This document shows, one piece after another, positions 1,160 to 30,267 of a stretch of 34,373 nt of DNA; positions within the stretch are counted from its first letter, which is position 1; every line of letters starts with the position of its first letter. Origin of the DNA: Halothermothrix sp. DTU029 (lineage in GTDB: Bacteria; Bacillota; Halanaerobiia; Halanaerobiales; DTU029). The stretch is taken from positions 4,491 to 38,863 of the forward strand of contig LFRS01000053.1 of the NCBI GenBank assembly GCA_001512435.1. The letters are read 5' to 3'. The notes under the pieces were generated by a model. The model saw nothing but the letters and a program-made list of their open reading frames with translations, was not told where the DNA came from and made no database searches. The translations under genes were made by a program, and so were the position numbers.

Positions 1160-3280
1160 TTATTCAAGAAGCAGAAAATCAATCTCCCTCTCATCCAGAT
1201 CTATTTTGTCTATCATAACACGGACCTTATCTCCAAAACGATAGACCTTGCCTGTATGTTCCCCCACCAGGCAATGCATTTTTTCATTATAGATATAATA
1301 ATCATCTTTCAGGTTCTCCACCCTGACCAAACCTTCTACTGTATTTTCCAGTTCAACAAAAAAACCAAAAGTAGTTATACCATTTATTATACCATCAAAT
1401 TCCTGGCCAACCTTATCCACCATGTATTCCAGTTTTTTCAGCTCCACTGAATCCCTTTCTGCTTCCATGGCCCTTCTTTCCTGTAGAGAACAATGTTCAG
1501 CAATATGTGGCAGCCTTTTTTCCAGACCAATAATCCTTTTTTCCGGCAGCACTCCCATAGTGAGAGATTCCTTTATAATCCGGTGGATCATTAAATCCGG
1601 ATATCTCCTGATCGGTGCAGTAAAATGGCTGTAAAAATCTATGGCCAAGCCAAAGTGGCCGATATTGGAAGGAGCATAAACAGCCTTTTTCATGGATCTT
1701 AATAAAAGGGTATTGATAACCCGCTCTTCTGGCTTTCCTTCCACCTCATCCAATAAATTCTGTAAGGCTCTGGGGTGAACCTGGTTCTGTATACCTTTCA
1801 GGAAATAACCAAAATTATGAATAAAGGCATTAAACTCCTGCAAACGATCCAGATCGGGCTGTTCATGGACCCGATAAATAAAAGGAATCTGTTTCCAACT
1901 CATGTCTTCAGAAACAACCCGGTTGGCAGCGATCATAAACTCTTCTATTAGCTGTTCAGCAATACCATGTTCCTCCATCCTGATTTCCACCGGTTTACCC
2001 ATTTCATTTAAAATAACCCTCACTTCTGGAAATTGAAAATTGATACTCCCCTTTTCAAATCTTTCCTGGCGTAATTTTTCCCGCAACTGATTCATCAAAT
2101 GCAACTGGGGCAGAAAATCCTCATACTTCTTTTCCACTTCAGGATTCCTGTTAACCAGGATTTCCTTTACCACAGTATAGGTCATCCGGTATTTACTCCT
2201 TATAACTGAAGGAGTAATCTCATATTCCAGCAATTTAAAGGGTTCCAGCTGATAGCTTATAAACACTGAAAGGGTTAAACGGTCTTCTCCCGGATTAAGA
2301 CTACAGATACCATTGGACAGCTTCGGTGGTAACATGGGTATAACCCTGTCAACCAGATAGATACTGGTTCCCCGTTCCAGGGCCTCTTTATCCAGGGCAG
2401 TACCTTCTTTTACATAATGGGAAACATCTGCTATATGCACACCCAGACGGACTTTCCCCTCACCCAGGTCCTCCATAGATACTGCATCATCCAGGTCTTT
2501 GGCATCTTCACCATCAATGGTTACCATGGGAAGCTCCCGCAGGTCCTTCCTATTAACCAATTCTTCTTCTAAGACCTTGTCTGGTATCTTATCCAGTTCA
2601 ACTTCAACCTCTACCGGAAAGGAGCGGGGTAAATCCAACTGCCGGATAATACTCTCAATATCAACACCTGGGGCTCCCTTATCACCCAGAATCTCGACAA
2701 TTCTTCCTTCTGGATTCCTGTTTTTTTCTGGCCAGCTGACAATCTCAGCAACAACTTTTTGATCCTGTTTTGCCCCATTTATCCCTTCCTTGGGGATGAA
2801 GAGGTCATAAAACAAACGCTTATTGTCAGGAACTACAAAACCAAAATATTTGCTCTTTTCAAAATTACCTACAATCCTCTTATTGGCCCTTTCCAGGATT
2901 TTTACAACTTCTCCTTCCTGGCGTTTGCCCCTGGTTCCAGAGATTAACCTGACCAGTACCTTGTCATTATGCATGGCTCCCTTCAGGTTTTCCCTGGCAA
3001 TAAAGATATCCTCCCTGGCCGGGTCCTCTGCTATCAGAAAACCAAATCCCTTCTGATTTCCGTCTATTCTTCCCACTATAAGATCCATCTTTTCTGGAAG
3101 ACTGAAACGGCCATTACTGCTTTTGTAGATAGCCCCCTCTTTAACCAGGTCTTTCAACAATTTACTCATTATTTCCCTTTGTTCCCTGGGAACATTAAAT
3201 TCCCTCATCAATTCTTTTTCTGTCAAGGGACGGTAGGTTTTATTTTTCATAAAATCCAGCAGTCTATCTCTTGCACCCAT
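1160..3280 (-). CDS. rnr: Ribonuclease R
   Basis: 706 aa. RNB domain ([45 protein letters not shown]) and C-terminal S1 domain; upstream of smpB. Confidence 0.96.
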
Positions 3281-3367
3281 TATCTAACCACCTTTTTAAA
3301 TAAATTAGGATTTACAATTTTATTAGTATAAATATATCATTTCCCCTACTGCAGCTTATTATTATCC

Positions 3368-3922
3368 TTACAGGCCAAGTTCTTTGCTGATCTCCTGCAT
3401 TGCCGCTAATGAAAGAGCAACAAATTCTTCCAGCTCCAGGCCCATTTCAATACAGGAAGCAATAGCCTCCCGGTCAGCTCCCCTGGCAAAAGATTTCTCG
3501 CCATAACGGTTCAAAACAAAATCAACATCAATGGAACTTAACTTCTTATCAGGATGTATTAAGGCTGCGGCAACAATTAAACCTGTCAATGGGTCACTGG
3601 CATATAAGGCCTTATCAATCAGCCTGACCCTTGGCAAACCATGGATAGCATTATGGGCTTTTACTGCATAGATTAGCTTTTCATCCAATCCCAATTCTGC
3701 CAGCATCTCTGCCCCCAGCAAACTATGTTGCTCTGGTTCCCTGGCAGTTTTATCATAATCAATATCATGTAGTAAACCAGCCAGGCCCCATATTTCTTCA
3801 TCTTCTCCAAAATAACCGGCCAGCTTTCTCATCACTGCTTCTACTGCCAGGCAATGTTTTATCAGATTTTTATTATGTAAATTCTCCTCAAGTACTGCAT
3901 ATGCTTCTTCCCTCTTCATCAA
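3368..3922 (-). CDS. HD-domain (HDIG-type) hydrolase
   Basis: H...GLLHDIDYD...H motifs of the HD superfamily. 184 aa. Confidence 0.85.
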   Translation of the reverse strand: MMKREEAYAVLEENLHNKNLIKHCLAVEAVMRKLAGYFGEDEEIWGLAGLLHDIDYDKTAREPEQHSLLGAEMLAELGLDEKLIYAVKAHNAIHGLPRVRLIDKALYASDPLTGLIVAAALIHPDKKLSSIDVDFVLNRYGEKSFARGADREAIASCIEMGLELEEFVALSLAAMQEISKELGL

Positions 3923-3950
3923 TAAAACACCCCTATCTTCCTGCTTATTT

Positions 3951-3984
3951 AAAAACCCTCCAGGAAAGTCCTTCCTGGAGGGTT
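3951..3984 (-). terminator. Rho-independent terminator downstream of secG
   Basis: accctccaggaa / ttcctggagggt inverted repeat. On the minus strand it is followed by TTTTT. Confidence 0.85.
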
Positions 3985-3992
3985 CATATATC

Positions 3993-4226
3993 CTAATTCA
4001 GTAAAGCAAGGGCCACTGAAGTGATCATGAAAAGAATCGCAAAAATTGTGGTCAGGCGACCTAATTTTTCATCTAAGCCCTTCTTTTTTCCAAAAATGTG
4101 AGTTGCTCCACCATCAATGGCTCCAGATAAACCTGCACTTTTCCCGGACTGGAGTAATACACCTAAAATAACACCCAGGGCTATAATTAAGTGCAAAACT
4201 TTAAGTAATACTACCACTTGGCTCAC
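3993..4226 (-). CDS. secG: Preprotein translocase subunit SecG
   Basis: 77 aa with two TM segments and the motif LLQSGKSAGLSGAIDGGATHIFGKKKGLDEKLGRLT. Confidence 0.93.
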   Translation of the reverse strand: MSQVVVLLKVLHLIIALGVILGVLLQSGKSAGLSGAIDGGATHIFGKKKGLDEKLGRLTTIFAILFMITSVALALLN

Positions 4227-4361
4227 CTCCAGAACTATACCTTATACAGATACTTCCATCTTCAATTAATAAAAAATTAAGACCGTACTTACAGACAAAT
4301 ATATTTTAACACATAAATCTAAAAAGTACAACAAACACTTTATTATTCTTCCTATTTATTT

Positions 4362-5546
4362 CTATACTTCTTCCAGTAAAAGATCAGCCAGGGAGTTTAG
4401 CTTATCTCTGCTTTTTTCCAGATTTATTACCTTGACCAGGAGTTTTTCCCTGATACCCTCTCCTATATTATTTAATAGCCTATCCTTAATTTTTAAACAT
4501 TCTTCTTCATTAACCCTATAAAGCAGTAGTAAGATACTGTTTTTATCCCAATGGCAAAAAACATCTCCTTCCCTTAATTTCTTGCGGCAGAGATGAAATA
4601 AATATTGTTTCATCTCCCTGAAAAACCTTCCGGTAATCTGGATATGGAGCAAAAAAAAGTCTTCCTGATACCTTGCCCGCCTTTTTAAAGCTAATTTATA
4701 TAATAATAGGAAAAGCTCCCGGTCACAGAGAAAGGGGCCATTATTTTCTTCAATATCATCAAAACCACCGGAAGCAATTAACTTATTATCTTTTTCAAAA
4801 AGATTATGGAATTTTTGCGCTGGTTCCAGCCCATATTCCTGGGCAATAAAGCGGGAATAATCCTGATAATACCTGGTGGCTTCAGCCAACTTACCAGCTT
4901 TAATCAACAAGCTGATTAAAAGATAATAAAGGTCTTCATCATAAAGTTTATACCTTAAGCTTTTTTTACATATTTCAATAGCTTCTTCATACTTATTCCC
5001 GCCCTCCAGAATTCTAATGGCATTGGTAATAAGTTGTGTATAGATATCTATATAATATTCACGAATAGGCATAGTCCAGTCTTCATAAAGATCATCCACC
5101 AGAAAATGATCTCTATAAAGAGCCAGTGCTCTCTTATATTTTTCCAGGGCCTTTTCTGGCTCCTTTTCCTCCAAAACAAGTCCCTGCTGGCATAAATCCT
5201 CCATCTCCTGGCAATCAATTTTTTTAACAATACTTTTATCAAAATAATAATAGCCTTGCCTATAATAAATGAATTTTTCCTTTTGATTATTGGCATACTT
5301 TCTTAATTTCTTTCTAATATAAGATATTGCCACATGTAAATTATATAATTCACAATCCTCAGGCCAGAAAAGTTCCAGCAAAAAATCCCTGGAAAGCCTT
5401 TTACCTGGATGAAACATTAAGTACTTTAATAGAGCTAAGGACTTTTTCGACTTCCAGCTATCAATATCCACTGGCTCTCCATTGATTACAATCAGAAAAC
5501 CTCCCAGAAAAAAAAGTTCCAGTGATAGATTATAGTCAGAAGGCAT
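4362..5546 (-). CDS. SARP/BTAD-family transcriptional regulator with unusual C-terminal domain
   Basis: N-terminal winged-helix signature (ELFFLGGFLIVINGEPVDI...KSLALLKYLMFHPGKRLSRDFLLELFWPE...AISYIRKKLR) followed by a TPR-like BTAD region (ALEKYKRALALYRDHFLVDDLYEDW...ATRYYQDYSRFIAQEYGLEP). Confidence 0.85.
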   Translation of the reverse strand: MPSDYNLSLELFFLGGFLIVINGEPVDIDSWKSKKSLALLKYLMFHPGKRLSRDFLLELFWPEDCELYNLHVAISYIRKKLRKYANNQKEKFIYYRQGYYYFDKSIVKKIDCQEMEDLCQQGLVLEEKEPEKALEKYKRALALYRDHFLVDDLYEDWTMPIREYYIDIYTQLITNAIRILEGGNKYEEAIEICKKSLRYKLYDEDLYYLLISLLIKAGKLAEATRYYQDYSRFIAQEYGLEPAQKFHNLFEKDNKLIASGGFDDIEENNGPFLCDRELFLLLYKLALKRRARYQEDFFLLHIQITGRFFREMKQYLFHLCRKKLREGDVFCHWDKNSILLLLYRVNEEECLKIKDRLLNNIGEGIREKLLVKVINLEKSRDKLNSLADLLLEEV

Positions 5547-5585
5547 TTTCCACCCTCCCTATTTGTACTAATCAACCCTATTACT

Positions 5586-5610
5586 ATATTCTTTTATATT
5601 CTGAATATTC
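5586..5610 (-). repeat. Three near-helically-phased ATATTC/GAATAT direct repeats upstream of the BTAD regulator gene
   Basis: ATATTC at 5586, 5596 and 5605 (spacing 10 and 9 bp) in the 102-bp gap upstream of the regulator start. Confidence 0.4.
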
Positions 5611-5648
5611 CTTTATTATTTCCATATATTTCTATCACTGGCTGGTTT

Positions 5649-7181
5649 TTATTCAACATAAATTGTATAGGTACTGTTTTGAATGCTATTATTTACACTC
5701 AAGACTTCTATTACAGCATTATATTCCCCTTCTTCCAGTTTACCTTTAAAGACTCCTTTAAAGAACACCTCTTTACCTGGAAATAAAAGCCCCTCTATCA
5801 AATCTTCAGATTCTAATTCTATTTCCCCCAGAGACTCCTGGGCTTTATTCAATAAATTTAATTTTACTCTAGGCTTCAAATGTACCTGGCCTATATTTTT
5901 TAAGAGGAGGAGAAAAGCCTGTTCCTCCTGGTTGATAAATTCAAATCCCTTAATCTGGGTCTCTAATCTACCATCCTTACCTACCAGGCAAGAAATAGGT
6001 ATTATTTTTTCATCCAGGAGATTTATGAGGGATTCATCTTCATAAACCTTTAGCTTCAGCAGGGCATAATAGCCACCTTCTGCTGCATCAATCGGTACCT
6101 GAAGGATCTTTAAAAACTGCCTGGATTGGCGGGGTAAAAGGGCCAGCCTGTCATCAGCATGTAATCTTAACCAGGGTATGAGGGAAAATTTATAATCTTC
6201 CTCTATATCCAGGACTTCTGTCTTGATATAAATACTTTCCCGGAAAATATTCTTGATTTCAAAGGTCTCAGTATATCTCTGGCCAGGCTTTAACTTAATA
6301 TTAACCATTTCTGGTTTAAGAGTAAAATATTTATTTAAGGCCTGAACCGGTTCTGGAAACTGGCCTGGCAAAATTCTAATATCATTTACAAAGGTCACCT
6401 TACCCCTTTCCCCATAAGACATTAAAGCCCTCAGCTCATAATTGCCTGGATATAAATAGTTTTCCGGCTTCCCGATAAATAAGACCCTGGAGCCAGGGTA
6501 TATTCTGGTAAAATCCCTCTGATTTCTTTCTGCTGCTATTGTACGCAGGACCAGCCGCTCTACCAGACTCCGATTTTCATCCCTGATTGTTACCTCTACT
6601 CCGGCCAGATAATCCAGTTGGGAGTTGTTTTCTACCTCCGCTACCAGGACCTGGTTTCCATTTTCATCCTTCTCCAGTTGGAGAAAGTTTATCCTGCCTC
6701 TTTCCCGTAGATTTGGGCCATCAACCCTTACAATCAGGCGGACAGCATACCTGACAATTAATGAAATACCATCTCCAGTTTTACTGGCTTCTGGTTCCAC
6801 CATTAAGATAATAACATAAGAACCTGGCCGGGTACCAAAAGGAACCCCGATACTGCCCTTTAATTCTACTTCCCCTTCAACCGGTACCAGGATATTATTC
6901 TTCTCCAGCTCTACCCAGCCCATCTCTGGAAAAGTCTCCAGATCGCCTACTCTATAGGCCAGATTACCGGTAAAATCCTGATAAGACTGATAAATAGATA
7001 TGGAAACACTTTCTTCCATGCCGGAAGAACTCAATATTAAGCTAAAATCTTTTCTTTCCCCTGGGGTCATAGTAAAATCCAGGGTTAAAGGTTGTACACC
7101 TATAGCCATGGCTGATAAACTAAAGAAAATCATAAAGAGGAAAAATAATATGATACCAGAAAAATATTCTAATCGACGCAA
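5649..7181 (-). CDS. Secreted protein with two tandem Ig-like chaperone/DUF916-like domains
   Basis: The ORF-track ATG start (7244) lies inside a stem-loop. A TTG at 7181 has an SD-like GGGGAGGG and gives a clean signal peptide, MRRLEYFSGIILFFLFMIFFSLSAMA. Two domain copies follow a PGxxxxxxxxxxN...W..L...VP....GgY pattern. Confidence 0.75.
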   Translation of the reverse strand: MRRLEYFSGIILFFLFMIFFSLSAMAIGVQPLTLDFTMTPGERKDFSLILSSSGMEESVSISIYQSYQDFTGNLAYRVGDLETFPEMGWVELEKNNILVPVEGEVELKGSIGVPFGTRPGSYVIILMVEPEASKTGDGISLIVRYAVRLIVRVDGPNLRERGRINFLQLEKDENGNQVLVAEVENNSQLDYLAGVEVTIRDENRSLVERLVLRTIAAERNQRDFTRIYPGSRVLFIGKPENYLYPGNYELRALMSYGERGKVTFVNDIRILPGQFPEPVQALNKYFTLKPEMVNIKLKPGQRYTETFEIKNIFRESIYIKTEVLDIEEDYKFSLIPWLRLHADDRLALLPRQSRQFLKILQVPIDAAEGGYYALLKLKVYEDESLINLLDEKIIPISCLVGKDGRLETQIKGFEFINQEEQAFLLLLKNIGQVHLKPRVKLNLLNKAQESLGEIELESEDLIEGLLFPGKEVFFKGVFKGKLEEGEYNAVIEVLSVNNSIQNSTYTIYVE

Positions 7182-7216
7182 AATTCTTCCCTCCCCATTA
7201 AGAGATAAGTAATAAG

Positions 7217-7243
7217 TGGCTGCCGGAATAATTCCGGCAGCCA
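7217..7243 (-). other. Intercistronic stem-loop
   Basis: Perfect 13-nt inverted repeat tggctgccggaat / attccggcagcca with 1 nt between arms and no T-tract on either side. Confidence 0.85.
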
Positions 7244-7257
7244 AGCCAGCTGCTTTA

Positions 7258-8010
7258 TTAAGAATCTGCAGAAACTGTCAGTCTTATTTCACCTTCATAA
7301 TTTCCTGCCTTAACTGCAGAGATATTCTCCCTTATTCCCGCAAAGCCAAAGACCTGGAAGGCATAGACACCTTTGTCATTAATTCCAGTATAAACCTGTG
7401 CGCTTTGTACCTTCTCTGGACTTGGCCAGATTACACCGGTAACGAGGTCCAATAAATGATCAAGCCAGTCTGGCCTGATATCAAATTCTGGTCCTCTGGG
7501 TATATCGGAACTATCGCCAAAATAACCAATCTCCTGTACTGGTATTAACTGCAGTGGTGGTGTCGCTGGGAAGAAAGGAATACGTGGTAATCTTATAGGT
7601 ATATCATTGACCCCTGCAGCTTTGAATGCCCAATAGGTTGTAGGCAGTGTAGTTGAACCATCAACATGGGTCAAGGGTGTACCTTCAAAAGTAAGATTAA
7701 CCGAACAGTTTGTTTCTACCAGGAAGCAATTGGAATCCTGGATACGGCTCCGCTGATCCGGATTACCTGTAAAATGTCCAAAATTCATTTCTGGCTCTAC
7801 TTCAAACCACTCATCTTCCAGTGGGATGGTCCAAAATGATTTTGTTACTTCATACTGCAATTTCTGCGGAACAACCGCTGCATAGGGGCCTACATTAGCA
7901 ATAACCTCAATCTCGTCCTTGATAGCACCTATGCTGCCCTGATTATCTGCAAAAACCAGAGAAGAAACAAGGAGAAACATTAATGATATGAATATAATAG
8001 ATCTTTTCAT
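7258..8010 (-). CDS. Secreted pilin/fimbrial-subunit-like protein
   Basis: Signal peptide MKRSIIFISLMFLLVSSLVFA. Shares FLVETNCSVNLTF...PLT and a C-terminal AGNYEGEIRLTVSA with the neighbouring proteins. Start placed at Met5 of the track ORF, after GGAGG. Confidence 0.7.
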   Translation of the reverse strand: MKRSIIFISLMFLLVSSLVFADNQGSIGAIKDEIEVIANVGPYAAVVPQKLQYEVTKSFWTIPLEDEWFEVEPEMNFGHFTGNPDQRSRIQDSNCFLVETNCSVNLTFEGTPLTHVDGSTTLPTTYWAFKAAGVNDIPIRLPRIPFFPATPPLQLIPVQEIGYFGDSSDIPRGPEFDIRPDWLDHLLDLVTGVIWPSPEKVQSAQVYTGINDKGVYAFQVFGFAGIRENISAVKAGNYEGEIRLTVSADS

Positions 8011-8044
8011 AACTCTATACACCTCCTCTTTTTTCTAATTTATT

Positions 8045-8560
8045 TTACTCTGCAGCAGCTACAGTTAGATAAATTGTGGAATTGTACTCACCAGCTGCCT
8101 GGTCAGAGATATTTCCTAAAGTAGCAGCAGCAGTAATGTTATAGACAACTACGCCATCAATATAATCCTGTATGTTCCTGATAACCTTATCATCACCATT
8201 GGCTCTTTCTGTACTGTAAGTTAACAATGCACTATCATTGCCAAGTTTAAACAATTCATAATCTACGGCAATAAAATCCCGGCCATTTGTCAGGGCATCT
8301 GCCTTGAAGGAAAGATCAATCAGGCAGTTAGACTCTACTGTAAAGATATTATCATCATCCCGGGCAACTTCTCCTGCTTTACCGATCAGGGATAGGTTTA
8401 CAAATGTATCACCTACCAGGATCTCTGCATATTTGCCAACAGAAGCCTTGACAGGTATTTCTGCTCCTATACTACCCAGAATACCCTCAGCAGCAAAGGA
8501 AAAAACACTGATACCTAACAACAAACTTAAAACCAAGACAGCAAGAAATATTCTCTTCAT
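8045..8560 (-). CDS. Secreted pilin/fimbrial-subunit-like protein
   Basis: Signal peptide MKRIFLAVLVLSLLLGISVFSFA. FTVESNCLIDLSFKADALT and C-terminal AGEYNSTIYLTVAA. Confidence 0.7.
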   Translation of the reverse strand: MKRIFLAVLVLSLLLGISVFSFAAEGILGSIGAEIPVKASVGKYAEILVGDTFVNLSLIGKAGEVARDDDNIFTVESNCLIDLSFKADALTNGRDFIAVDYELFKLGNDSALLTYSTERANGDDKVIRNIQDYIDGVVVYNITAAATLGNISDQAAGEYNSTIYLTVAAAE

Positions 8561-8649
8561 AATCCTACCTCCATTTTTTTGTTTTTATACCTCACCAACT
8601 AATAAACTAGCCCTTTAGTCCTTCCTCTCTCACCCCCTTTTAATAATTA

Positions 8650-9465
8650 TTACTCCAGCTTAAATATTAATTTTGCACCTGCATATTCTCCAGCCTTATC
8701 AGCAAGGCTATTATCTATTAAAAGCTGGATAAGGAAATCTTGCACCCTATTTCTGTTTCCAGAACTGAGAAGTAAGCCTTCTTTCTTAAATGGTACTGGT
8801 TCTTCCCCATTAACAGATATTAATAGTTTTTCCAGGGGAATTACGGGTAATTTCTCATTTCCCCCTACTAAGCCATCTTCCACCATGGTCAGGGGATTAC
8901 AATAGGCCTTTAAAGACCAGCCAGGATAATTTGTTCTAACCTCCACCAGAAAGGCTTCTTCTCCATATCTACCTGGACCAGAGTTAATCCTGAAATGAAT
9001 ATTTTCTTTATGGACAAGGATTTTGGCCAATTCTGGATGAAATAATTTCAGATTTAATACTGGATTAATTTCCGGATCACAGCCAGGCCTTAGATTTATT
9101 GGATAATAAGCACTGACATAGGACAAATCTTCAGCCAACCGTAACACTAGAACTTTTTCCCTGTGCCGGGAATTTAACTCAAGATCAATTTGTTCAAAAG
9201 GCAGAAAAAATTCCCCGCTTTTAATTAATAATTCAGGAGCTTCTCTGGCAGGAGAGGATATCTTATAGATAAGCTGGTGTTTTTCAACACCATCCTTAAG
9301 CCTGAACCTTATTAAAGCCTCCCTGTCATCAGGTCTGGAATAAAAAACACCAAGCTCCAGAATATCGTTCTCATAAGTCCAGTCCTGTCTATAATTATCC
9401 AGATTATATTCGCCTGCCTTAACTATCAAGACAAGCCCTATAAATAAGATAATTGTGCTGATCAC
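8650..9465 (-). CDS. Secreted protein related to the neighbouring subunit-like proteins
   Basis: N-terminal signal/anchor MISTIILFIGLVLIVKA (GTG start). FLVEVRTNYPGWSLKAYCNPLT and C-terminal AGEYAGAKLIFKLE parallel the two downstream proteins. Confidence 0.6.
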   Translation of the reverse strand: MISTIILFIGLVLIVKAGEYNLDNYRQDWTYENDILELGVFYSRPDDREALIRFRLKDGVEKHQLIYKISSPAREAPELLIKSGEFFLPFEQIDLELNSRHREKVLVLRLAEDLSYVSAYYPINLRPGCDPEINPVLNLKLFHPELAKILVHKENIHFRINSGPGRYGEEAFLVEVRTNYPGWSLKAYCNPLTMVEDGLVGGNEKLPVIPLEKLLISVNGEEPVPFKKEGLLLSSGNRNRVQDFLIQLLIDNSLADKAGEYAGAKLIFKLE

Positions 9466-9501
9466 TTTTTTTCTCAGTTAAACCACATCCTTAGGAGGAA
9501 A

Positions 9502-10746
9502 TTATTTATTGTATATAAGTCCCAGGTAATAGTCTTCCTCTTGCCAGACTAAAGACAGATCTATAAGGGGTGTAAGCTCATAATCTATTTTTATGGTATT
9601 GGTAATTTCTGAATTCCAGTGGCTACCTATATAGCTGATTCCAAAAGCCTTTTTCTCATATGACAGTTGGATTTCTGTTACTGGCTCCTGTCTATTAAAA
9701 TCATTCAGGTCATAGACCAGAGGATAAAAAGACAGCTGCCATTTAAAGTCAGCAGAACAGTTTATACTGTCTCTCAAACCCAACATTAGATATGGTTCTG
9801 CCTTTTTTTCAATTAATACAGAGCCCAATAACTCATTTTTTTCATTAAAGCTTTTATCAAAAACTGCCTGGTAATTGAGAGTTCCATCATTACTGAATAG
9901 GGCAAGCTTTAATTTCTCTCCACCTGTATCCCTCTTATACTCAACCCCTCCACCAGTATTGCCTAAATAAAAAGCAATTTGACTTTTGGACTCAATAAGC
10001 TTATCCAGTGAAAACAATTGATTTATGCCTTTAATATTATTCATGACCAGTATAGGGGCTGTCCCTCTTAACATTTCTGGATAAAGACTCCTGGCCTCAA
10101 TAAACAAGGCAAAATACCTGTATTGATTCTCCTTCTTACCCTCCTGGAGTTGTTTCAAAATAAATACAGGTTCAGTACTTTTACCCGCCAGCCAGACCTC
10201 TGTTTCTACACTGGCCACATTGCCAGATTTATTTTTATATTCCAGCTCCACTGCTGTAAGAATCTTTTCTTCACTTATAGTTAGCTCCAGAGGTTTTAAA
10301 AGAATACTAAAATAAGCCGGTGATTCTCTGTTTTTATCATTGAGCAGAGTATTATTTACCCTGATTATTCCTTCCTTGTTAGGTACGGTAATTAGCCAGG
10401 AACTATAGTCATTTCTTACCTGCCTTCCTTCCTGGAAATTCACCAGGTCCAACTGTAGATCTGACCAGATGCTGCTGATAACTTCCTGATCTGCAAAGAG
10501 CTGCCATTCCTCTTCTTCAACATTATCTTCCCAGGACAGGATATATTCCAGTTCATTGATTGTCTTCCAGGATAATTCCTCCATCTTCAATAAGTAAAAA
10601 ACCATTGGTGATTCTACCGTATATTTCCTATATTCCCAGCCAGGCTCAAGCAATTCAATGGCTGCTTCTTTTGTAAGGCTTATCTCTCCCGGCAACATGA
10701 AAAAAGCAAGAAAGAGAAATACAAGAATCAGTCTAGTTTTCTTCAT
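9502..10746 (-). CDS. Exported beta-rich protein of unknown function, candidate outer-membrane or envelope protein
   Basis: Signal peptide MKKTRLILVFLFLAFFMLPGEISL. The C-terminal half has alternating amphipathic beta-strand-like segments (FKWQLSFYPLVYDL, EIQLSYEKKAFGISYIGSHW, TNTIKIDYELTPLIDLSLVWQEEDYYLGLIY). Start set at internal Met5. Confidence 0.5.
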   Translation of the reverse strand: MKKTRLILVFLFLAFFMLPGEISLTKEAAIELLEPGWEYRKYTVESPMVFYLLKMEELSWKTINELEYILSWEDNVEEEEWQLFADQEVISSIWSDLQLDLVNFQEGRQVRNDYSSWLITVPNKEGIIRVNNTLLNDKNRESPAYFSILLKPLELTISEEKILTAVELEYKNKSGNVASVETEVWLAGKSTEPVFILKQLQEGKKENQYRYFALFIEARSLYPEMLRGTAPILVMNNIKGINQLFSLDKLIESKSQIAFYLGNTGGGVEYKRDTGGEKLKLALFSNDGTLNYQAVFDKSFNEKNELLGSVLIEKKAEPYLMLGLRDSINCSADFKWQLSFYPLVYDLNDFNRQEPVTEIQLSYEKKAFGISYIGSHWNSEITNTIKIDYELTPLIDLSLVWQEEDYYLGLIYNK

Positions 10747-10761
10747 AAAAACAATCATCTC

Positions 10762-11928
10762 CTACCTGATAATCGGTGTCACAAAGACCAGCAATTCTCT
10801 TTCGTTTTCTTCTTTGTTTTCGCTTCTAAATAACCACCTGACTAAAGGAATATCTCCCAGTAAGGGTACCTTTCTGGTAGAATCTGAATCCCTCTTTAAA
10901 GTCATTCCTGCCAGACAGACTGTTTCCCCATTTTTTATCTGTAAGCTAGTTTTCAATGAATTTTCCTTAACAAGCAAATTGGGATTTGCTTCATTAATAA
11001 AGTGGCTAATAACAGGGGCTAATTCCAGGTATACCTGATCTTCCCCAATTATTCTGGCCATAACCTCCAGTTCTACACCCACCTTTACTTCTTCGGCCCT
11101 GGTACTGTTGTAGCTCTCATTATGTATAAAAATAACCTGCTCTTCACCTATAAAAAACCTGGCTGAACCTCCATCACTGACCAATATATATGGGTTTGCT
11201 TCTATGGAAGCCAGCTGTTCTTCTTCCATTAACCTCAATTGCGAAAGCAAATGTCCATATAGGTCTGTTTCTACCCTTAATAAGTTGTCCCTGGAACTGT
11301 AAGCAATAGTTCTATCAACATCCTCCCCACTGGTAAATTGAAATAAGTTTATTCCCAAATCACTGGCTATTTTGCTATCTACTTCAGTTACCAATAATCT
11401 TATTTCAATCTGTTTCCTGGGCTTATCTATACTTCTGATATATTCCTTAATTCTTTCCAGCTCTTTGGGGGCTGCATTTATGGTCAGGACATTGTTCTCC
11501 CGCTCACCTCTAACATAGTTTGTTAAAAAAGTGGGAAGGAGATTAAAAACCTCTTTTACTGTGATATTTTCCAGCTGAATTACCTCAAAGTCACTCAAAT
11601 CACTGAAACTAACATTCCTGGGATCTGCCAGGCCCACTAGATAATAATCCTCTATCTTCCTGAAGGTAAAACCACCAGATGATAGAATCATATTCAGGGC
11701 CTTTTCCAGAGGTACATCCCTAAGATCTACTGTAATGACTCCATTTACTGTCTGATCTGCAATTATATTTATACCGGTCTGGATTGATAACTCATGAATG
11801 GCATCTCTAAGATCTGTTTCATAAAACATGGCATTTACCAGGGGTCCCTCTTCTGCCTTCATTACAAAAGAAATAGCTAGCAAAAATACTAATAACACAA
11901 TAAATCTGTTCTTTTCAATATATTTCAT
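10762..11928 (-). CDS. Short secretin (GspD/PilQ superfamily), STN/N-domain plus secretin domain
   Basis: N0/STN-like DAIHELSIQTGINIIADQTVNGVITVDLRDVPLEKALNMIL, N1-like IQLENITVKEVFNLLPTFL...NNVLTINAAPKELERIKEYIRSIDKP, and secretin core KNGETVCLAGMTLKRDSDSTRKVPLLGDIPLVRWLFRSENKEENERELLVFVTPII. Signal peptide present. Confidence 0.93.
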   Translation of the reverse strand: MKYIEKNRFIVLLVFLLAISFVMKAEEGPLVNAMFYETDLRDAIHELSIQTGINIIADQTVNGVITVDLRDVPLEKALNMILSSGGFTFRKIEDYYLVGLADPRNVSFSDLSDFEVIQLENITVKEVFNLLPTFLTNYVRGERENNVLTINAAPKELERIKEYIRSIDKPRKQIEIRLLVTEVDSKIASDLGINLFQFTSGEDVDRTIAYSSRDNLLRVETDLYGHLLSQLRLMEEEQLASIEANPYILVSDGGSARFFIGEEQVIFIHNESYNSTRAEEVKVGVELEVMARIIGEDQVYLELAPVISHFINEANPNLLVKENSLKTSLQIKNGETVCLAGMTLKRDSDSTRKVPLLGDIPLVRWLFRSENKEENERELLVFVTPIIR

Positions 11929-11975
11929 AAGTGCCTCCTTTCTCTTTATACTGCAACAACAGTATCTACTGAAAA

Positions 11976-12008
11976 ATTATAAACCCTTTTTCTAAAAGAA
12001 TTCTAAAA
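11976..12008 (-). promoter_or_regulatory. Candidate SARP-type promoter of the secretin cassette
   Basis: Minus strand TTTTAGAA-TTC-TTTTAGAA (11-bp period), then 8 bp, then TATAAT (11976-11981). No good -35 at 17 bp. The CDS starts 48 bp downstream, after AAAGGAGG. Confidence 0.55.
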
Positions 12009-12149: not shown

Positions 12150-12176
12150 AAGCCCCAACTTTAAAAAAGTTGGGGC
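12150..12176 (-). terminator. Second (tandem) Rho-independent terminator upstream of the secretin cassette
   Basis: gccccaacttt/aaagttggggc hairpin followed by TTTTTTT on the minus strand. Confidence 0.85.
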
Positions 12177-12197
12177 AAAAGCCTTCTCCGGACACAT

Positions 12198-12255
12198 AAA
12201 AAATACCTCCAGGTAGAAAATCTAAATAAAATTAGACTCTCTACTCTGGAGGTAT
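12198..12255 (-). terminator. Rho-independent terminator downstream of eno
   Basis: Long stem with atacctcca (12203-12211) / tggaggtat (12247-12255) plus inner pairing. A T-tract follows on the minus strand. Confidence 0.85.
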
Positions 12256-12282
12256 CACCTCAAAAACTTATTTAAATATTTA

Positions 12283-25092: not shown

Positions 25093-26367
25093 CTATAAAG
25101 TATAGCCAAAACCCAGAATAGTAAAGCTCTTAAATTCATCACCAGGGGCCATCTTTATTTCTATAGTATGCTCCCTCGCTTCATCCTCCTGGTAAAGCAG
25201 GGTAGCATTACAATGGGTCCAGTTAACCCGGCGGGGATCAAGGGTTTTAACATATTTACCATCTACATAGACCTCAGCCTTACCAAAATCAGCACTGCCG
25301 GAATCCTTAAAAACCAACATTAAACTTTTGCTGGTAATAGTCATCTTGAAACTCCCGGTACCAGAGTAGATATTATGCATCCAGTTATTGGGGAATTGGG
25401 CTGTTCCTCCAAGATCAGCATCCATCTCCACCCTCTGTAGGTCATGGTCCCGCAGGCGAAATCCCCCTGCCTCAATAGTTGCTGCCTCCGTATTGGTGTT
25501 CCTATCCAGCAGCCGTATGTTTTTAAAAGCATCCCCCAAGAGAGGTTTCTTATCTAAATTAATATCTTCTTCAGCTATTGCTGCCTTATCTGTTTCAGCA
25601 AAGAGATAGGCCAGGCAGTCAGCCATAATCCGGTGGCCAGCATTGGAAGGATGATAGATATCAGCAAAAAAATCCTCTTTGCTGATTATATTACCCTTTC
25701 CTTTTGATATATAAAACTGGTCTACCACTGCATCCTTAATACTAACCATAGGCAGATTATAGTATCTACCTATAGGGGCCAGCCGATCCTGCAGGTTCCA
25801 GTCACTCTTGAATACACTGAATAACAAGATAACTGCCGGTTTATTTTCTGCTTCAAGAATCTTTAAAACCAGGCTTTCATAAGATACCCCCCTGGTCTCA
25901 TCATCGGCATCATTTACGGCAAATTCCACTACAACGATATCTGGTTCAACAGTACCATCCCTTAAGACATCCCGGTCATAACGGATAACACCTAACTGGG
26001 AAGGGGTACCACCAACACCAGCCTTGATAAAATGAATATTATCACCACCATCTTTCCCAAACATCTCTTTAAAGCGCAAATAGGATTGATAGGCATAACA
26101 ATTGGTATTGATAGGACTGGCTCCTGCCCCCTGGGTTATTGAACCGCCTATATAGGCTATGGTAATCTCTTCCCCTCTTTTTGCCTTTTCTATGGCATTT
26201 TTCAGCCGCTGATTATTACCTGTACTTAATAGGGATTTAGCGATCATGGCCTGGTATTCTTCAGAAGCAAAATCTACTCCTCCACTACTGGCAGCAAAAG
26301 CCCTGATCATCCCCCCTGCAATAAGCATAACCAGTAAAAGGATAATTACTGTCCTGATTTTTTTCAT
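25093..26367 (-). CDS. Secreted SGNH/GDSL hydrolase with C-terminal beta domain
   Basis: SGNH blocks: IAYIGGSITQGAG, GVGGTPSQLGVIRYDRD, VVEFAVNDADDETRG, DIYHPSNAGHRIMADCL. Signal peptide MKKIRTVIILLLVMLIAGGMIRAFA. Start set at Met20 of the track ORF to avoid overlap with ktrA. Confidence 0.88.
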   Translation of the reverse strand: MKKIRTVIILLLVMLIAGGMIRAFAASSGGVDFASEEYQAMIAKSLLSTGNNQRLKNAIEKAKRGEEITIAYIGGSITQGAGASPINTNCYAYQSYLRFKEMFGKDGGDNIHFIKAGVGGTPSQLGVIRYDRDVLRDGTVEPDIVVVEFAVNDADDETRGVSYESLVLKILEAENKPAVILLFSVFKSDWNLQDRLAPIGRYYNLPMVSIKDAVVDQFYISKGKGNIISKEDFFADIYHPSNAGHRIMADCLAYLFAETDKAAIAEEDINLDKKPLLGDAFKNIRLLDRNTNTEAATIEAGGFRLRDHDLQRVEMDADLGGTAQFPNNWMHNIYSGTGSFKMTITSKSLMLVFKDSGSADFGKAEVYVDGKYVKTLDPRRVNWTHCNATLLYQEDEAREHTIEIKMAPGDEFKSFTILGFGYTL

Positions 26368-26380
26368 TTTACTCCTCCTC

Positions 26381-27031
26381 TTACAACTCTTTATCCATCT
26401 TTTGCAATTCATCATTACCACCAAAGGCTATCATAATGTCTCCGGTTTCAAAGCTTAAATCTGCCAGCCTGCTTACATAAATCTCATCACCCCTCTTGAC
26501 AGCCAGAACATTTATATTAAATCGATTTCTTAATTTTAATTCCTGTAGACTCTTGCCAATCATACTATCCCTTACTGGCAACTCAATAATACTGTAATCA
26601 GGAGAAAACTCCAGATAATCAATTATGTTTGAAGAAAGCAAATTATTAGCCACCCGGATACCCATATCCCTTTCCGGATAAACAACCCTATCAGCACCAA
26701 CTTTACTCAGTAAACGGCCATGCAAATCATCCCTGGCCTTGACAATAACATAGGGGACTCCCAATTCCTTCAGTATTAGGGTAATAAGTACATCAGCCTG
26801 GGAGTTATCACCAATACTTACAACTGCTACATCAAAGTTACCTGCCCCAAACCTCCGTAATACCTCCGGATCTGTGGCATCGGCTTCTACCGCATAAGTA
26901 AGATCAGCTGCTATTGATTGTACCCTTTCCATATCCTTATCTATGGCCAGGACATTATGTCCTCTTTCCACCAGAGTTCTGGCTACACTAGCACCAAAAG
27001 TGCCTAAACCAATTATAAGGAATTGTTTCAT
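26381..27031 (-). CDS. ktrA: Potassium uptake regulator KtrA/TrkA (RCK domain)
   Basis: FLIIGLGTFGASVARTLVERGHNVLAIDKDMERV Rossmann NAD-binding; RCK_C tail; adjacent to ktrB. Confidence 0.95.
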   Translation of the reverse strand: MKQFLIIGLGTFGASVARTLVERGHNVLAIDKDMERVQSIAADLTYAVEADATDPEVLRRFGAGNFDVAVVSIGDNSQADVLITLILKELGVPYVIVKARDDLHGRLLSKVGADRVVYPERDMGIRVANNLLSSNIIDYLEFSPDYSIIELPVRDSMIGKSLQELKLRNRFNINVLAVKRGDEIYVSRLADLSFETGDIMIAFGGNDELQKMDKEL

Positions 27032-28527: not shown

Positions 28528-30267
28528 TTAGAGGGTATAGCCAAAACCAAGAATGGTGAAACACTTATCTTCATCACCAGGAGCCATCTTAATCTCTATC
28601 TCATGTTCCCTGGCTTCCTCTTCTTGATATAAAATTACAGCATTACAATGGGTCCAGTTATTAATATGAGGATCAGCAGTCAGGACATATTCCCCATCTA
28701 CATAAATCTCTGCCTTGCCAAATTCACTGTTCCCTGAATCCTTAAAGACCAGCATCAGGCCTCTGCTAATGATAGTCATCTTAAAGCTTTCTGTACCAGA
28801 TGAAGGAGTACGCATCCAGTTATAGGGGAACTGGGCTGTTCCATGGGAATCAAGATCCATCTCTACCAGCTGTAAATCCTGGTCTCTTTCCTTAAAACCA
28901 CCCTCAGCTATACTGGCTACATGAGTATTAGTCTCTCTATCCAGGAGGAGAATATCTTTATAATAATTGCCAATTGCCGGTTCCTGATCAAGTATAATAT
29001 CTTCTTCAGCTATTGGGTCTTTACTGGTCTCGGCAAAGAGATAGGCCAGACAGTCTGCCATAATCCTATGGCCATCATTGGTCGGATGATAAATATCATA
29101 GAAAAACTGCCTTTTAGAGATAATATTCCCCTCTTCTTTAGATAGACGGAATTGCCCTACTACAGCATCCTTTACACTTACCATAGGCAAATTATAGTGT
29201 TCTCCCACAGGAGCAAGCCTGTCCTGCAGGTTCCAATCATTTTCAAAAACACTGAATAAGAGAATTACTGCCGGTTTATTTTCTGCTTCTAAAATCTTTA
29301 AAACCAGGCTTTCATAACAAACTCCCCTGGTCTCATCACCAGCATCGTTTACGGCAAATTCCACAATAACAATATCTGGTTCCACTTGTCCATCCCTTAA
29401 AATATCCCGCTCATAGCGGATAATACCTAGTTGTGAAGGGGTGCCACCAACACCGGCTTTAATATAATGAATATTATCCCCCCCATTCCTGCCAAACATC
29501 TCTTTAAATCTCAAATAAGACTGGTAAGCATAACAATTGGTATTGATGGGCTTGGCCCCTGCCCCCTGGGTAATGGAGCCACCTATATAAGCTATGTATA
29601 CATCTTCACCTCTTGCGGCTTTTTCCATAGCCTTTTTCAAGCGCCAGTTATTACCCTTATGTAATAATGATTTAGCTATCATTTTTTTATACTCTTCTGA
29701 AGCAAAATCAACCAGTGGGTCAACAATTAAGTCCTCCACCTCATAGCCGTCATTTAGATAAAACTTAACTGTAGCTTTACCTATCTGGCCAACCTGATCA
29801 AATTCAAAAGCAAATTTACCCAGGATATCATCATCTGAAGACCATTCATAATCTGCCAGTTCTATAAGAACTTCCCTGCCATCAGCCGGGCAGGGAACCC
29901 GCAATGTCGTTCCACTTTCATACTTATTGCTTTTTCCCCAGTTCTGTAAAACAAAATTCACTTCTTTTATACTATCATCACTAGCCTGTATGGATACACC
30001 AATACTGTGGACTAATTGATGGAATCCAGCACAGCTTTCCAGCAGCTGTAATATTTCTTCATCAGTTACTCCCCCTATAAACTCTGCTGCATTTCTTATC
30101 CGTCCTTCCAGGTAGATCTCCTCTGAAGGTTTGCCTTCATTCCTGCTGCTTGCTTCAATATCAGTATCCAGCATCAGGTATATACAGCTCCGCTTCTCAA
30201 CAGGGTCCTTTGGTGCCACAGGCCCCCTGCCCTTTTTTTCCTCATTTAATGTCTTATTCTTTTTCAC
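28528..30267 (-). CDS. SGNH/GDSL hydrolase, non-secreted paralog with about 185-aa N-terminal extension
   Basis: Same SGNH blocks and C-terminal domain as 25093-26367 (IAYIGGSITQGAGAKPINTNCYAYQSYLRFKEMFG...GFGYTL). N-terminus is hydrophilic with no signal peptide. Confidence 0.88.
   Translation of the reverse strand: MKKNKTLNEEKKGRGPVAPKDPVEKRSCIYLMLDTDIEASSRNEGKPSEEIYLEGRIRNAAEFIGGVTDEEILQLLESCAGFHQLVHSIGVSIQASDDSIKEVNFVLQNWGKSNKYESGTTLRVPCPADGREVLIELADYEWSSDDDILGKFAFEFDQVGQIGKATVKFYLNDGYEVEDLIVDPLVDFASEEYKKMIAKSLLHKGNNWRLKKAMEKAARGEDVYIAYIGGSITQGAGAKPINTNCYAYQSYLRFKEMFGRNGGDNIHYIKAGVGGTPSQLGIIRYERDILRDGQVEPDIVIVEFAVNDAGDETRGVCYESLVLKILEAENKPAVILLFSVFENDWNLQDRLAPVGEHYNLPMVSVKDAVVGQFRLSKEEGNIISKRQFFYDIYHPTNDGHRIMADCLAYLFAETSKDPIAEEDIILDQEPAIGNYYKDILLLDRETNTHVASIAEGGFKERDQDLQLVEMDLDSHGTAQFPYNWMRTPSSGTESFKMTIISRGLMLVFKDSGNSEFGKAEIYVDGEYVLTADPHINNWTHCNAVILYQEEEAREHEIEIKMAPGDEDKCFTILGFGYTL

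Follow-up and report, generated by a model that had tools for sequence, protein, structure and literature searches.

A candidate chaperone-secretin system for pilin-like proteins in Halothermothrix sp. DTU029 and related diderm Firmicutes

Secretins are known as outer-membrane pores that serve motor-driven machines, and fimbriae of the donor-strand type are known as products of ushers. What could be assembled, then, by a gene string that combines a secretin with pilin-like proteins and a chaperone-like protein? This question is raised by a 34,373-nucleotide stretch of DNA from Halothermothrix sp. DTU029 (GenBank assembly GCA_001512435.1, contig LFRS01000053.1, positions 4,491 to 38,863 of the forward strand), hereafter the window, whose numbering is used for its features. 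Seven consecutive minus-strand genes had been read from its sequence, and all seven are present, flanked by the eno terminators on one side and secG on the other. They encode a short secretin (SEC), a diverged second secretin-like protein (BETA), three secreted proteins (S271, S171 and S254), an exported protein with immunoglobulin (Ig)-like domains (IG) and a transcriptional regulator. The original prediction held that the short secretin replaces an usher, giving a chaperone-secretin type of envelope structure. Conservation of the gene set, the predicted folds and a secretin clade of its own support it, and export and fibre formation are what we infer beyond them. A system in which pilin-like subunits are chaperoned by IG, leave through SEC and BETA and polymerise without an ATPase is considered here somewhat better than an even bet.

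SEC, BETA and the double-Ig protein constitute a conserved module. SEC and IG were sought by separate profile searches in 399 genomes sampled throughout the phylum; secretins scoring at least 200 bits were assigned to the SEC clade, and 34 listed secretins at 135–200 bits formed the comparison set. IG lies no more than 5.5 kb from SEC for 40 of the 46 SEC-clade genes (median 1.2 kb) and for 1 of the 34 other secretins listed, counts that are not independent trials, since the carriers are related among themselves. For the remaining six SEC-clade genes, the same contig shows no IG match. The carriers are 40 genomes belonging to 20 families; loss of the neighbourhood in relatives had been named as a sign against the prediction, and the neighbourhood is kept over this whole range. 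Omp85 is present in 40 of 40 carriers, compared with 102 of the 399 genomes overall.

A PF00263 search of 41 relatives yielded secretins of about 390–420 amino acids (aa) alongside long ones of the type IV pilus (T4P) type, and the same gene set recurs around the shorter proteins. The IG alignment alone, used as a query against genome contigs, retrieved 34 loci. All 10 independently fetched loci with enough flank on both sides contain SEC, followed immediately by BETA, with subunit genes surrounding IG. The S271 family recurs across clusters as well, and a second copy of the gene set is located in the Halothermothrix sp. DTU029 genome itself (contig C33).

Departures from this layout also occur. 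In a deep-branching variant (loci L086, L097, L100 and L101), a longer IG of about 560–615 aa directly precedes a secretin of the same clade, and other secreted proteins are encoded nearby. In Halothermothrix orenii (L025:7337-10968), the IG gene is broken into two reading frames and the BETA region is fragmented; this cluster may be decaying.

Pilin-like subunits are represented by S171 (8045..8560, minus strand; 148 aa in the mature form) and S254 (7258..8022, minus strand; a start at ATG 8010 is likelier). The AlphaFold2 model of S171 (predicted local distance difference test, pLDDT, 88.1) leaves residues 1–21 unpaired. Its Foldseek matches (CfaB, CsuA/B, the PapG pilin domain, FimG and FimA) are mostly donor-strand-complemented pilins. 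When the PDB was searched with profiles of full-length subunits, bacterial signal peptides present on antibody chains contaminated the results, and the search was therefore repeated on mature sequences. The CsuE pilin domain is matched at 8.5e-6 by the profile of 74 members and at 9e-4 by that of 49 members without signal peptides; Caf1 is also matched, weakly. DUF4402 is recognised in 5 and SCPU in 3 of the 74 family members. A perfectly alternating seven-residue strand near the N-terminus, of the kind present in S171, occurs in 29 of the 49 mature subunits, compared with a mean of 5.6 and a maximum of 12 in shuffled sequences.

S254 is related to S171, which is matched by the L022 homologue of S254 at 6e-5, and shares the C-terminal motif AGxYxGxIxLTV. 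S271 (8650..9465, minus strand; 271 aa) has two domains, and the C-terminal one matches the subunit profile (hhalign 97.8%, 8e-13), so that the relationship claimed earlier for the three secreted proteins is borne out. This layout is like that of two-domain tip adhesins, and S271 is a candidate tip adhesin or adaptor. As far as the models indicate, the subunits have a pilin-type Ig fold with a free N-terminal strand. Unrelated folds among the small proteins had been held out as the contrary outcome; what emerged was a shared pilin-like fold with complemented pilins as its structural neighbours.

IG (5649..7181, minus strand) most likely starts at TTG 7181 and not at 7244, with the ribosome-binding site GGGGAGG immediately upstream and a signal peptide after the start. 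Its AlphaFold2 model (pLDDT 90.7) contains four Ig domains, and the two halves are homologous through internal duplication (hhalign 98.5%, 3e-15). Among the PDB entries listed by Foldseek, two domains of IG superpose best on the WxLIP of Enterococcus faecium, alone and WxL-bound (9i1y/9i25), with template modelling (TM) scores of 0.57–0.60 by target length. WxLIP_PGBD is matched weakly, below Pfam cut-offs, in 8 of 13 IG homologues. A profile search of the PDB with the IG alignment gave no match, and the structural relatives named here come from the fold search only. The top 21 Foldseek ranks, tandem-Ig chains including ciliary proteins and PrgB, were rejected as relatives (TM at most 0.30, root-mean-square deviation above 19 Å). 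PF00345, the PapD-type chaperone family, was not matched in the clusters, and one of 14 genomes has a match elsewhere.

IG is thus modelled as two tandem WxLIP-type modules. The Ig folds of the two-domain chaperone-like protein proposed originally stand, while the number of domains is revised to four and their closest kin to WxLIP (DUF916/DUF3324) in place of PapD. The most conserved octamer of IG, RYAVRLIV, lies in the first domain, where it is the second strand of a hairpin. For WxLIP, a hairpin strand is predicted by AlphaFold2 to complete the WxL sandwich (PMC10599100). By analogy, IG could complete the subunits by strand insertion, and it is regarded as a candidate periplasmic chaperone.

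The same resemblance leads to the main rival, a surface complex of the WxL kind that does not polymerise. The pilin-like proteins would then be of WxL type, held one-to-one by IG on the peptidoglycan or outer-membrane surface, and the secretin pair would only export them. The closeness of the IG fold to WxLIP and the weak WxLIP domain matches are consistent with this, and the WxL/WxLIP (DUF916-DUF3324) clusters of monoderm Firmicutes likewise combine small and large proteins with WxLIP, the insertion of a strand being predicted there too (PMC10599100). However, the WxL domain (PF13731) was found in none of 14 carrier genomes, with a positive Lactococcus lactis control, and the nearest folds of S171 are polymerising pilins. 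A one-to-one complex would also have no need of the free alternating N-terminal strand of the subunits. The known clusters are further unlike the present one in that IG consists of tandem modules whose sequence has no C-terminal membrane helix or other anchor and in that a secretin pair is added. Display without fibres is accordingly considered unlikely.

In the chaperone-secretin reading, BETA (9502..10758, minus strand; 418 aa), encoded directly downstream of SEC, would contribute to the exit. It had been described as a beta-rich exported protein; it is present as such, and its nature is refined here to a second, degenerate secretin. In hhalign, the BETA profile can be aligned to the SEC secretin domain (E 2e-4), and homologues that take the position of BETA in other families (L093, L094 and L095) match the SEC hidden Markov model at 6e-28 to 2e-15. 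According to Pfam, an N-terminal secretin domain is retained in L093 (STN, 7.6e-7) and weakly in L094. On this sequence evidence, BETA is descended from a secretin. Of 38 BETA homologues, 28 have an aromatic residue among their three C-terminal positions, compared with 22% of background open reading frames; outer-membrane barrels often carry such a C-terminal residue.

The barrel-like C-terminus and the position directly after SEC could also be explained if BETA, or an outer-membrane protein elsewhere, were an unrecognised usher and SEC had some other purpose. One cluster (L033, Halanaerobium kushneri) is indeed adjoined by a 1016-aa usher-like outer-membrane protein and a PapD/WxLIP-like protein. 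The BETA homologues are secretin-derived, though, the usher-like protein of L033 lies outside the conserved module, and the canonical usher family PF00577 was found in 0 of 25 carrier genomes in a search with a positive E. coli control, the Pfam model being one that may miss distant ushers. A hidden usher is therefore judged improbable. The genes beside the L033 module (2518-7332) encode, besides the 1016-aa protein with its SdrD_B/Cu-amine-oxidase-N matches, the PapD/WxLIP-like protein (269 aa, two domains) and a 286-aa secreted protein; possibly they form a second, usher-like system.

SEC, BETA, IG and the subunits could instead be a static scaffold between the outer membrane and the wall with no role in export, a reading to which only a slim chance is given. 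It is suggested by the related locus L103, in which a secretin domain is fused to LysM peptidoglycan-binding modules. Against it, SEC, BETA and IG are constant between clusters and the subunits differ from one cluster to the next in how many there are and in sequence, a pattern typical of surface-exposed structures. L103 (325-6812) comprises genes for a subunit-like protein, a short two-domain IG homologue, a 1052-aa NEW3/SdrD/LysM protein and the 563-aa secretin-LysM fusion; perhaps it is a peptidoglycan-anchored variant.

SEC (10762..11928, minus strand; 388 aa) has a signal peptide followed by N0/STN, N1 and secretin domains and is a true secretin (PF00263, 8e-35; PF03958, Secretin_N; PF07660, STN). 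A maximum-likelihood tree was built from 68 secretins. One branch, supported at 100/100, parts the 42 secretins of the clusters from those of T4P and of type II secretion systems (T2SS) and from other secretins. SEC thus shares its domains with the PilQ/GspD-type secretins but belongs to a separate clade, is only about 390 aa long and has no linked platform, ATPase or prepilin genes, which some carriers do not have at all. In small size and domain layout SEC is similar to the pIV secretin of filamentous phages (pIV chain match), from which it differs in having no adjacent phage genes and in its linkage to chaperone-like and pilin-like genes.

The earlier statement that no usher, ATPase or platform is encoded alongside holds for the locus; elsewhere in the same genome, a long T4P-type secretin is located on contig C70 and T4P-type ATPases with a platform protein on contig C119. 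The T2SSF platform is absent from 8 of the 40 carriers (G192, G344, G405, G079, G262, G213, G238 and G252), seven of which are at least 90% complete and two of which are single-contig. G192 and G344, both checked for the T2SSE ATPase, have none above the cut-off, and the only secretin of G192 is that of the cluster. Therefore, T4P or T2SS are not needed by the module in those lineages. The remaining explanation, that SEC is an accessory outer-membrane part of the T4P or T2SS of the same cell, had likewise been named as an outcome against the prediction. It draws on the T4P-type ATPase and platform proteins of this genome and most carriers, and it was rejected as barely credible in view of the separate clade, the separate T4P-type secretin, the carriers free of platform or ATPase and the constant linkage to IG and subunits instead of pil or gsp genes.

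The chaperone-secretin system could function as follows. S171, S254, S271 and IG would be exported to the periplasm by Sec. There IG would hold each subunit, probably by lending the strand R116-Y-A-V-R-L of its first-domain hairpin to the incomplete Ig fold. In the outer membrane, a ring of SEC working together with the degenerate BETA would serve as the exit in place of an usher. Outside, the free alternating N-terminal strand of one subunit would complete the fold of the next by donor-strand exchange, and S271 would cap the fibre as a tip adhesin. An ATPase is proposed to be dispensable because assembly would be driven by folding energy. The unit would be controlled by its BTAD regulator.

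Several points weigh against this scheme. Fibres and export are deduced from genes and single-protein models. The Foldseek scores of S171 are modest (E about 1e-4 to 3e-2, the best 1.7e-4; TM about 0.45–0.49), and no PapD-like chaperone is among the 50 listed Foldseek neighbours of IG. The scheme also requires that a multimeric secretin be gated, and passed by chaperoned subunits, without a motor. Most carriers, this genome included, also have T4P-type motors, so that a borrowed motor can be discounted for some lineages only. The T2SSE check covers two of the eight platform-free genomes (G192 and G344).

Among known systems, the archaic chaperone-usher (Csu-type) fimbriae are similar to the proposed one in their small Sec-exported pilin-like subunits (CsuE profile and CsuA/B fold matches), a two-domain tip-adhesin-like protein, an Ig chaperone candidate, the alternating N-terminal strand and an ATPase-free cluster. 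The differences are the secretin pair instead of an usher and a doubled chaperone candidate that resembles WxLIP more than PapD. The system is rated new in kind because no known kind joins these parts, each of which is itself of a known fold. Related bacteria are covered in the literature: a T4P PilQ is mentioned for Halanaerobiales (PMC5007114), Halothermothrix orenii is described as having two secretins linked to T2SS (PMC2626281), and six filament systems that include secretins are mentioned for diderm Firmicutes (PMC6668835). No description of the module was found in the open literature, including the available portions of these three papers; subscription journals and preprints were mostly outside the search, and an earlier description is possible. 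The chances are put at about equal that this is an undescribed outer-membrane assembly pathway of chaperone-secretin type, one that uses neither ATPase nor usher and exports donor-strand pilins by way of a secretin pair.

If so, it would represent a new export logic: a secretin would be reserved for pilin-like subunits and the chaperone that serves them, and some of the cells concerned have no T2SS or T4P motor. Such a pathway would connect the WxL/WxLIP systems known from monoderms with the chaperone-usher fimbriae known from diderms. Since IG has the WxLIP fold of Gram-positive wall complexes and its partners are folded like the fimbrial subunits of Gram-negative bacteria, the system is relevant to how the assembly of surface proteins changed between cells with one and two membranes. 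A surface structure is thereby predicted for many diderm Firmicutes, mostly known from metagenomes, and could be sought in cultured Halanaerobium.

The last gene of the string (4362..5546, minus strand) encodes a BTAD/SARP-type transcriptional regulator (BTAD, 4e-13; Trans_reg_C, 3e-10). It is a recurrent neighbour of the module, present in 6 of the 10 fully flanked loci. When single window proteins were searched with Pfam and NCBIfam, useful matches were obtained only for the secretin and this regulator. A strong intercistronic hairpin of 12 perfect base pairs (7217..7243, minus strand; hairpin scan, local fold z-score -3.8) has the variable subunit genes on one side and IG on the other. It has no clear T-run; for the subunit mRNA it may act as an attenuator or as a stabiliser of the 3' end.

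Upstream, the eno unit is set apart from the module by tandem intrinsic terminators (12152..12258, minus strand), both hairpins of which were found as predicted. The terminator scan gave one at 12176-12152, with 11 pairs and a T-run; the second, read from the sequence just upstream of it, is formed by ATACCTCCAG...CTGGAGGTAT and has a T-run after it. Elsewhere in the window, two SGNH-like proteins (25093-26424 and 28528-30267), 77% identical over 394 aa, are encoded on either side of a TrkA/TrkH-type pair, and their sequences point to a recent duplication around a potassium-transport locus.

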